Of a stretch of DNA of 20,627 nucleotides, positions 2,888-5,154 are shown piece after piece. Position 1 is the first letter of the stretch; each line of letters starts with the position of its first letter. A program made the translations under genes and the position numbers. The DNA is from an uncultured Faecalibacterium sp. (GTDB lineage: Bacteria > Bacillota > Clostridia > Oscillospirales > Ruminococcaceae), in contig CAKTGS010000032.1 in the NCBI GenBank assembly GCA_934561485.1, forward strand, positions 1 to 20,627, written 5' to 3'. The notes under the pieces are model-generated. The model had not been told where the DNA came from. It did not search any database and saw only the letters and a program-made list of their open reading frames with translations.

Positions 2888-2933
2888 AAGTCCCATGTCC
2901 GCACCGCCAAGGTTCCGGGCATGGGACTTTTTT
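2888..2933 (+). terminator. Intrinsic terminator after malQ
   Basis: A perfect 10-bp inverted repeat (AAGTCCCATG, 2888-2897; CATGGGACTT, 2920-2929) is followed by six T residues at 2928-2933. It lies 31 bases after the malQ stop and should end the transporter-malQ transcript. Confidence 0.9.
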
Positions 2934-3138
2934 GCAGATGCTGCAGCCGAATGACGTTCCCGGAAAAGGGCAGCACAGGCAGAGCCGCAGAAGGCCCTGC
3001 TGCTATGATCTGACTACGACATTTTTTCGCCGGAGCAGACAGGGGTGTGCTGGGCCGGTTTGGCGATACATCGCTGGTTTGCAGTGTCATCGCCACAATT
3101 CGTTCACAAATGTATCATGATTTTAGTGCTGAACTCTC
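2934..3138. other. Intergenic stretch without a recognised gene
   Basis: Between the malQ terminator and the next promoter there is no convincing gene. Short open frames here lack good ribosome binding sites and resemble nothing known. A 7-bp inverted repeat TGGCGAT/ATCGCCA (3061-3067 and 3089-3095, 21-base loop) and the palindrome ATCATGAT (3114-3121) lie just upstream of the promoter for the Gly-Gly leader genes. They could be regulatory, but this is weak. Confidence 0.4.
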
Positions 3139-3167
3139 TTGTTATTTTTATACAGTTATGCTACAAT
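3139..3167 (+). promoter_or_regulatory. Promoter for the Gly-Gly leader gene pair
   Basis: A -35-like TTGTTA (3139-3144) and a -10-like TACAAT (3162-3167) are separated by 17 bases, about 60 bases upstream of the first start codon. The surrounding sequence is AT-rich. This gives the two small genes their own transcription start, separate from malQ. Confidence 0.65.
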
Positions 3168-3225
3168 TCAGTTAATACAAAATCTGCCTTTGTGCGGATT
3201 CACGAGCGAAAGGAGTTTTTCCACA

Positions 3226-3687
3226 ATGGACCATACATATCAGACCACCCTGCTGATGCCCGCTTCCTATGCGGTTCTCTCCGAAGAAGAAATGACCTAT
3301 GTTGAAGGCGGTGCCTTTTCGACCAACATCGACATGAAGACTGTCATGTTCTACGCTGCCAACTTTGCGATAAACAGCCTGTACGTGCTGGGCCGCGGTG
3401 CCTTCCAGCAGGCGGTGACCATGTTCCAGAACGGTTTTGCCGATGGCATGAGTGCTATTGGCATTGCAGACCACTTCTGGAACAGTCTGAACGGCTGGAG
3501 CAAAGCTGCTACCGTGGGCCTGGGCGCTCTGGGCGGCTACTACGTGTACACCCAGGTAGTGAGCATTGTGCGCTCCATCAAGAACCTGGTGGAGGCCCTG
3601 CGCCCGAATCAGAGCACCGATTCCTCCGCAGATACCGCTGCAGCCGATCCCACGGCACAGGCCACTGCGGCCCTGACAGCTGCCTGA
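3226..3687 (+). CDS. Small protein with double-glycine export leader, precursor A
   Basis: Not assigned to a known family. The 153-residue product begins with a 29-residue leader ending in MPASYAVLSEEEMTYVEGG (11-29). It closely fits the double-glycine leader consensus (Leu-Ser-x-Glu-Glu-Met/Leu-x-x-Val/Ile-x-Gly-Gly) cut by C39-peptidase ABC exporters. Cleavage after Gly29 would release 124 residues with no cysteine. These contain a hydrophobic glycine-rich stretch near residues 100-120, a short basic segment, and a low-complexity Ala/Thr/Asp/Ser tail from about 132. The start is the ATG at 3226, preceded by AAAGGAG; the 29 codons open upstream contain the promoter -10 and are not coding. 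The next gene shares the leader. It could be a large bacteriocin-like or contact toxin, or another exported peptide. No exporter, immunity or modification gene is visible in the window. Confidence 0.8.
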   Translation: MDHTYQTTLLMPASYAVLSEEEMTYVEGGAFSTNIDMKTVMFYAANFAINSLYVLGRGAFQQAVTMFQNGFADGMSAIGIADHFWNSLNGWSKAATVGLGALGGYYVYTQVVSIVRSIKNLVEALRPNQSTDSSADTAAADPTAQATAALTAA

Positions 3688-3738
3688 CCAGGTTTTGACC
3701 TCTGTTCCCTGACCTGATCCAGAAAGGAGTGTTCTTTC

Positions 3739-4086
3739 GTGAAAAAGCTTCAGATGCCGGCTTCTTATGCCCTGCTTACGGAAGACGAGCAGCGCACCAC
3801 TTCCGGCGGTGGTGAGTTCAAGGATGCCTTGAGCAACTTTTTTGACAATCTCCACCTGAGCGATTTCTTCCTGGGCGGTGGATTGATCTCCTTCTCCATC
3901 ACGTTTGTGCCGGTGCTGCTGTTCAAAGCAGTACGCACCGGTGTCTCCTTTGCCTTCAACCTGTACGACCAGCTTTCCAATCTGCTGGGCTTCCACGATG
4001 AGACCGCAGACCAGGTGCAGCAGCTGGCACAGGAACAAAAAGAGATTCTTGCTTCGCAGACCACTTCCACCCGCTCCATGTTCTGA
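3739..4086 (+). CDS. Small protein with double-glycine export leader, precursor B
   Basis: Not assigned to a known family. The 115-residue product starts at GTG 3739 (good AGAAAGGAG site before it), 51 bases after precursor A. Its leader segment MPASYALLTEDEQRTTSGG (6-24) has exactly the same 19-residue length to Gly-Gly as precursor A and matches it at 11 positions, although the last part is less canonical. The remainder (about 91 residues, no cysteine) has an amphipathic acidic start, a hydrophobic stretch near 43-62 beginning with three glycines that could cross a membrane, and a polar Gln/Glu-rich C-terminus. It is probably co-transcribed with A and may act with it, as in two-component bacteriocins, but the bodies are much longer than class IIb peptides. 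Export by a peptidase-containing ABC transporter encoded elsewhere is inferred. Confidence 0.75.
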   Translation: MKKLQMPASYALLTEDEQRTTSGGGEFKDALSNFFDNLHLSDFFLGGGLISFSITFVPVLLFKAVRTGVSFAFNLYDQLSNLLGFHDETADQVQQLAQEQKEILASQTTSTRSMF

Positions 4087-4122
4087 ACGGAAACAAAGGG
4101 GCTGTTGCACACGCCCCAACAA

Positions 4123-4169
4123 AAAGACCAGAGTTATTTAGCCAAAAGGCTTTACAACTCTGGTCTTTT
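4123..4169 (+). terminator. Terminator/attenuator upstream of the transposase remnant
   Basis: A perfect 13-bp stem (AAAGACCAGAGTT 4123-4135; AACTCTGGTCTTT 4156-4168), with a smaller AGCC/GGCT stem in its loop, is followed by a short T run. It ends the transcript of the Gly-Gly leader genes. Because it lies inside the element's left end, it may also have protected the transposase gene from read-through transcription. Confidence 0.8.
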
Positions 4170-4192: not shown

Positions 4193-4594
4193 ATGAAACG
4201 GATAAAGCAAGAACAGCATATCGAAATTCAGGAGAAAAGCCAAAAGTTAAAATTTCGGATGCAGACAGAAATTCAAATCGACAAACATCATGTGCTCTGT
4301 CAGGCAAGCGGCCAGCTTGAGGAACTGGACGATACAAAATTGTATTTCGCTTATTCGGGGATCCGAAAATCGCAGATCGAGCCGCGGGTGTTATTCAAGG
4401 TGCTGGTATGCGCCTACATAAAAGGCGTATACTCCAGCCGGAAGATCGAAGAACTATGCCGGGAGAATCTGGTGTTCCGGTGGCTTCTGGAAGACCAGAA
4501 TGTACCAGATCACTGCACGATCGCAAGATTCCGGAGCAACAGAGGTTTACAGAAACAGCATCTCATCCACCCGAAAGCCTACCTGAAATTCTGA
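4193..4594 (+). pseudogene. Truncated transposase, IS1182/IS5-like N-terminal region
   Basis: The 133 codons begin like IS1182-type transposases. The stretch from about residue 64 to 117 (Pro-Arg-Val-Leu-Phe-Lys, a Tyr-Ser-Ser-Arg-Lys-Ile segment, then Asp-His-Cys-Thr-Ile-Ala-Arg-Phe-Arg) matches the N-terminal domain found in these enzymes. After Phe-Arg the family resemblance stops and the frame ends 18 residues later. The DDE catalytic core is absent, so it cannot be an active transposase. A lysine-rich frame continues in another phase to a stop at 4662-4664 and might be the old C-terminus joined after a deletion and frameshift, but that is uncertain. Confidence 0.75.
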
Positions 4595-5076: not shown

Positions 5077-5081
5077 AAAAG

Positions 5082-5154
5082 TGGACCTAGAGGGATTCGA
5101 ACCCTTGACCTCTCGGATGCGAACCGAACGCTCTCCCAACTGAGCTATAGGCCC
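5082..5154 (-). tRNA. tRNA-Ala, anticodon CGC
   Basis: The reverse complement folds as a 73-base tRNA: acceptor GGGCCTA/TAGGTCC, D-arm GCTC-AGTTGGGA-GAGC, anticodon arm TTCGG-TTCGCAT-CCGAG, variable loop AGGTC, T-loop TTCGAAT, and discriminator A. Bases 34-36 are CGC, reading GCG (Ala). The G3:U70 pair, the main identity element for alanyl-tRNA synthetase, is present, which supports Ala. The outermost T-stem pair is A-C and the first anticodon-stem pair is U-G, both minor oddities. CCA is not encoded. It has its own promoter and terminator. Confidence 0.93.

Follow-up and report, generated by a model that had tools for sequence, protein, structure and literature searches.

Two adjacent genes in the genome of an uncultured Faecalibacterium sp., here called A and B, form a real pair that is conserved in the genus. 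They were analyzed in a window of 20,627 nucleotides, the whole stretch of DNA under study (contig CAKTGS010000032.1; Table 1). The reading that we consider probable is that A and B constitute a two-gene operon whose products are orphan substrates of the single MAM-type peptidase-containing ABC transporter (PCAT) of Faecalibacterium and have a role in the cell envelope. MAM, the Microbial Anti-inflammatory Molecule, is a known surface protein of the genus. As for the parts of this reading, it is very likely that both proteins are exported by the MAM-type PCAT, and the chances appear evenly balanced that their role lies in the envelope rather than in killing or signalling. No description of A or B was found in the literature searched.

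Table 1. Features of the A-B pair and its flanks in the window
Feature	Position	Strand	Description and basis
Orf A	3226..3687	+	153 aa; ATG start at 3226; putative precursor of a 124-residue protein
Leader of A	3226..3312	+	29 residues, Gly-Gly at the end
Orf B	3739..4086	+	115 aa; GTG start at 3739; putative precursor of a 91-residue protein; hydrophobic stretch, residues 43-62
Leader of B	3739..3810	+	24 residues, Gly-Gly at the end
Ribosome-binding site of A, AAGGAG	3210..3215	+	Sequence; kept in the upstream-region alignment
Ribosome-binding site of B, AAAGGAG	3723..3729	+	Sequence
Promoter-like site of the A-B unit: TTGTTA, 17 nt, TACAAT with TATG extension	3139..3167	+	Promoter scan; kept in the window and 12 aligned loci
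Likely terminator of the A-B unit: a hairpin whose 3' side is rich in T	4122..4169	+	Inverted-repeat search and folding
Possible malQ terminator between the mal genes and A-B: an inverted repeat with a T tract after it	2888..2929	+	Inverted-repeat search

Homology search yielded 75 relatives with A as query and 14 with B, and a broader B profile gave 233 relatives, of which the best 120 are listed. The single informative name among the relatives was a hypothetical protein of Faecalibacterium prausnitzii (P0006), and the MalF part of the window was 95-100% identical to the MalF of Faecalibacterium loci L154-L166. In a profile search of 31 genomes of the genus, the A profile (A1) matched 27 and the B profile (A2) 26. 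The additional A1 genome, G027, was matched through its MAM, which adjoins the PCAT; A proper thus occurs in 26 genomes, and G027 has a PCAT and no A-B. As judged from match coordinates, B follows A directly and on the same strand in all 26 genomes with B. The preliminary description had regarded A and B as a two-component system, and this constant adjacency, which suggests that they may act as one functional unit, is the one basis for it. Among 396 genomes drawn from the family, A2 was found in six and A1 in eleven. All six with B and a full-length A belong to the genus set, and the remaining five A1 matches cover chiefly the leader, reaching position 74 of 146 at most.

The chromosomal setting was compared in 22 loci (the 26 minus G003, G011, G015, and G028). 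The genes malF-malG-malQ lie directly upstream of A-B in 18 of them, with malF cut by the end of the stretch in one; the pairs of G012, G016, G013, and G010 have no malQ in the available stretch. Downstream of B, among 23 loci including the window, a convergent galK was found in 11, with the match starting 52-120 bases past B, and a galactokinase-like gene on the strand of B lies 269-505 bases off in eight (domains were checked in L158 only). Neither arrangement occurs in the other four, namely L157, L161, L167, and the window; where the 11 loci carry galK, the window has a fragment similar to IS1182 transposases (4193-4594), followed by a tRNA-Ala gene (5081-5154). Several metagenomic relatives of B (P0079-P0087, P0091, P0093, P0155, and P0184) have a common N-terminal half and C-terminal halves known from other species, with the switch near a conserved GGGLISFSITFVP stretch; these are either assembly chimeras or cases of true recombination. 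Another metagenomic relative, P0108, which could be a chimera, ends in an IPNTGD-hydrophobic-KKK tail that we take to resemble a sortase signal.

In the window, A and B are separated by 51 bases. A promoter shared by both genes had been claimed, and a promoter scan returned two promoter-like sites (3090-3118 and 3139-3167) against an average of 1.0 in shuffles, so that the scan by itself is no proof of an A-B promoter. The claim is supported instead by conservation of the second site, with its extended -10, across 13 aligned sequences, i.e., the window and 12 of the 22 A-B loci, the other ten lying outside this alignment. A CTTGTTATTT-like -35, a TATGCTACAAT-like -10, and AAAGGAG are kept upstream of A in the same sequences. 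The terminator described after the pair was recovered as a strong hairpin with T-rich flanks and a folding energy of -26.8 kcal/mol (z -7.6). A simple terminator scan of the window listed neither this hairpin nor the inverted repeat upstream of the pair; for the promoter and the terminator of A-B, conservation and folding energy are better evidence than the simple scans.

The two 19-residue segments ending in Gly-Gly, on which the preliminary description was built, were confirmed: they span residues 11-29 in A and 6-24 in B and are identical at 11 of 19 positions. The leaders had been called equal in length, which holds for the stretch from Pro to Gly-Gly (18 residues) but not for the full leaders: with the ATG and GTG codons of Table 1 as starts, these are of unequal length. 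The part upstream of the 19-residue segment is also conserved, with MDHTYQ-type starts in A and MKxLQ-type starts in B. The pattern P-x2-Y/F-x6-E/D-x5-GG had two matches in the six frames of the window, exactly A and B, and a mean of 0.05 matches in 300 simulated windows, none of which had two; because the pattern was composed with A and B already known, these counts measure rarity and are no blind test. Both leaders fit a scheme with Pro, Tyr/Phe, and Glu at positions -18, -15, and -8, respectively, before the terminal Gly-Gly (-2/-1). Past the central Glu, the B leader diverges from the other leaders in having no MTY, and Tyr is lost in some leaders, as in the B of G016, which has Cys instead.

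Five families share this leader: A, B, MAM, and two unnamed ones, C and D, and profile comparison gave no clear alignment of their bodies. In 28 chosen rows of leaders from these families, the alignment is gap-free from Pro to Gly-Gly; no row deviates at Pro, at one Glu, or at Gly-Gly, and Tyr is nearly invariant. The rows were picked by a loose pattern (Pro, Tyr/Phe/Asn, an acidic or Gln residue, and Gly-Gly, with variable spacing), so the agreement in residues is partly built in, the constant spacing less so. The leader genes of family C encode 109-141 aa and mostly occur as tandem groups of two or three whose bodies diverge (for example, G001:C1 ~211400-212000 in L174 and G004:C1 ~1888900-1890050 in L177), and their bodies are strongly hydrophobic in 11 of 11. 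Those of family D (73-80 aa) are solitary and lie elsewhere in the genome (L176:4803-5036, L178, L182, and L185).

A transporter encoded away from the pair had been postulated, and genomes of the genus support this. Profile search found one clear C39 protein each in 26 of the 31 genus genomes, and C39, ABC membrane, and ATPase domains were present in both C39 proteins scanned (G001 and G009). The C39-bearing frames measure 776-846 residues in 25 genomes. The C39 match at G030:C1:1947568 lies in a 203-residue frame, reflecting a frameshift or an assembly error, and G023 has only a weak C39 match in a 293-residue frame. In the eight genomes with A-B and the PCAT on one contig of at least 2.7 Mb (G001, G004, G008, G009, G018, G020, G030, and G031), linear coordinates place pair and transporter at a distance of about 78 to 806 kb. 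Of the 26 genus genomes that carry B, all relatives of the window, 25 show a clear C39 match. The exception is G028 (1.8 Mb), where A and B occur along with four leader matches but C39 gave no match. The leader profile A5 matched 27 of the 31 genomes, with 2-8 matches each, and had none in G021, G022, G023, and G029. Of the five genomes in which no clear C39 protein was found, four are thus also without a leader match (Fisher p 1.6e-4, a value that ignores kinship and incomplete assemblies). These four genomes, without a clear PCAT, A, B, or leader match, are either incomplete or members of a lineage that lacks the system.

The link between leader and transporter extends to other bacteria, where a leader ORF was found downstream of a PCAT with 50% or higher identity to that of Faecalibacterium in 16 of 26 loci, at a distance of no more than 2.5 kb and, in 15 of the 16, of no more than 200 bases. 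Among the ten misses, eight have no such PCAT match in the stretch (L007, L010-L013, L017, L029, and L030), L032 has no leader ORF by pattern, and the leader genes of L034 are 3.5 kb away. The PCAT-linked leader genes of other Clostridia (L006-L026 and L035) have leaders very similar to those of A-B, such as MPSSYAVMxEEEMTYVEGG, and the full-length PCATs that neighbor them are 60-65% identical to that of Faecalibacterium. They differ from A-B in gene order, with a cargo gene immediately following the PCAT in 15 of 26 loci, and in their cargo bodies. These loci carry one to three cargo genes each, with widely different bodies.

MAM is reported to be the most abundant envelope protein of F. duncaniae, with a leader inferred to be cut by PCAT and a proposed hexameric lattice (PMC12184118). 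The MAM of G009 begins in agreement with the peptide reported for F. duncaniae A2-165, and the A of this genome is at 1713415-1713849. The diversity and gene context of MAM have been described, and the PCAT is distant from mam in some strains (PMC8836110). A-B resemble MAM in leader type, Pro-to-GlyGly spacing, genus, and presumed PCAT; unlike MAM, they are a constant pair, their distance to the PCAT is 78 kb or more in the eight single-contig genomes, and body homology to MAM is unproven. Their leaders also fall outside the published MAM motif MMMPANx(8,11)VxGG (PMC12184118), A reading LLMPASYAVLSEEEMTYVEGG and B reading LQMPASYALLTEDEQRTTSGG. The lineage-specific recognition tag suggested in the preliminary description is supported by the sequences, though as a wider form of the published MAM leader (PMC8836110; PMC12184118). 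Since the leaders of A and B are nearly the same export tag as that of MAM, the same transporter probably exports A and B.

The bodies behind the leaders, 124 aa in A and 91 aa in B, are mutually unlike, as had been stated; hhalign gave an E value of 0.085 across 18 columns, as for unrelated proteins. The reported lack of cysteine is true of both window proteins and is not family-wide, with cysteine-free bodies in 33 of 49 A and 27 of 29 B sequences. An AlphaFold2 model of A, of moderate quality (pLDDT 71, pTM 0.40), has helices at 37-72, 77-87, and 90-125, and the model of B was poor (pLDDT 63). The long-short-long order predicted for A is also that of the published MAM helices at 37-70, 74-86, and 100-119 (PMC8836110; PMC12184118). 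No fold match in the PDB was found for the A model, as reported for MAM as well (PMC12184118). When compared by hhalign, the bodies of A and MAM scored 18.7, and so did the top-scoring one among 150 column shuffles; in the reverse direction, 1 of 200 shuffles scored better, and an unrelated control, the B profile against one A body, gave a similar hmmsearch E value (8.7e-4). Sequence support for common descent of the two bodies is borderline, and profile comparisons found no sequence relation between B and MAM. A stretch above 1.6 on the Kyte-Doolittle scale occurs in 97% of 29 B bodies, compared with 18% of 49 A and 10% of 30 MAM bodies.

A further possibility considered was that A and B are secreted effectors directed at host or mucus, the function proposed for MAM, and play no structural part. 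The common leader is relevant here, as MAM lowered NF-kB signalling in transfected cells (PMC8836110); the genus is a gut commensal, and rapid divergence would suit an interface. A sequence relation to MAM was, however, not found for B and is no more than suggestive for A, and MAM itself is hypothesized by its authors to be held in the envelope rather than secreted as such (PMC12184118). A purely effector role is quite improbable in our estimation.

The leaders and tandem arrangement of A and B could also be those of a large class IIb-like two-peptide bacteriocin exported by PCAT. With class II double-glycine bacteriocins (Bacteriocin_IIc, PF10439; class IIb), they have in common the leader, a C39 transporter in the genus, and the tandem gene pair. 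Compatible with such a role would be a weak Pfam match of A to Bacteriocin_IIc (16.6 bits, under the cut-off of 27.1), two GxxxG motifs in A (residues 70 and 100), the hydrophobic stretch in B, and the fast divergence of both. However, all Pfam and NCBIfam matches of A and B are under cut-off, and GxxxG is absent from the body of B. Usual class II bacteriocin peptides are shorter than 124 and 91 residues. No immunity gene was seen: the convergent galK leaves no room for one in 11 of the 23 loci, and inspection by eye of the other 12 (same strand, ATG start, 450 bases after B) revealed no small ORF alike between loci. Moreover, A-B occur in nearly all species of the genus, mostly in one place and with the promoter-like region kept, and differ in this from accessory bacteriocins. 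We consider the bacteriocin unlikely, and less likely than PCAT-exported envelope proteins; the bacteriocin or signal role of the preliminary description gained nothing in its favor besides the leader and the two tandem genes.

The expectation that homologues would retain the leader while their bodies diverge held in the genus genomes. Across the 18 loci, including the window, in which all four genes were found, mean pairwise identity was 90% for MalG and 81% for MalQ; it was 57% for the leader and 31% for the body of A, and 55% and 43%, respectively, for B. Among the pairs listed, i.e., those with a malQ dS under 0.9, dN/dS was mostly 0.1-0.8 for A and B and 0.03-0.28 for the neighbor genes. 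Some A and B pairs were saturated and gave no value; every listed A pair with a value was below 1 except three, at 1.0-1.1. In the related genomes of L154, L155, and L156, the dN of A is 6-10 times that of malQ, and in the closest pair (L158 and L159) A is no faster than malQ. A fair reading of these values is rapid change under purifying selection; the dN/dS comparison of the listed pairs did not demonstrate positive selection on A or B.

Fast divergence, the missing MTY part of the B leader, and the occasional loss of Tyr could alternatively indicate that the leader is vestigial and that A and B are unexported or decaying relics. This is highly improbable given the constant Pro-to-GlyGly spacing across the 28 rows, the promoter-like region retained in 13 sequences, and the prevailing dN/dS; the stop flagged in the B matches of G005 and G016 is each gene's own end.

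In the preferred reading of A-B as envelope proteins, the pair would be expressed together, and the C39 domain of the PCAT would recognize the shared leader through Pro, Tyr/Phe, Glu, and Gly-Gly at their fixed positions and cut after Gly-Gly, with the PCAT exporting mature A and mature B. Outside the cytoplasm, both may act jointly as a part of the cell envelope, B being the putative membrane-associated partner by virtue of its hydrophobic stretch and A, with its predicted long-short-long helical outline resembling MAM, the exposed one.

More tentatively, and with less confidence than in that reading, Faecalibacterium may possess a PCAT-driven envelope-building system in which one transporter exports some four to eight proteins that bear the leader and are encoded at scattered loci, MAM being only one of them. 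A-B would then be a surface complex of two proteins, restricted to the genus; between species it would diversify rapidly, while its promoter and export tag, and in most cases its location on the chromosome, would not change. Research on this leading gut commensal has treated MAM as its special exported protein. If the exporter of MAM is common to A, B, and the other leader ORFs, the PCAT would serve a whole set of proteins, and the effects of PCAT loss or of envelope preparations could not be credited to MAM alone. The pair would also provide new candidates for the species-specific surface of Faecalibacterium, whose system is tied by the leader to the PCAT clusters of other Clostridia.
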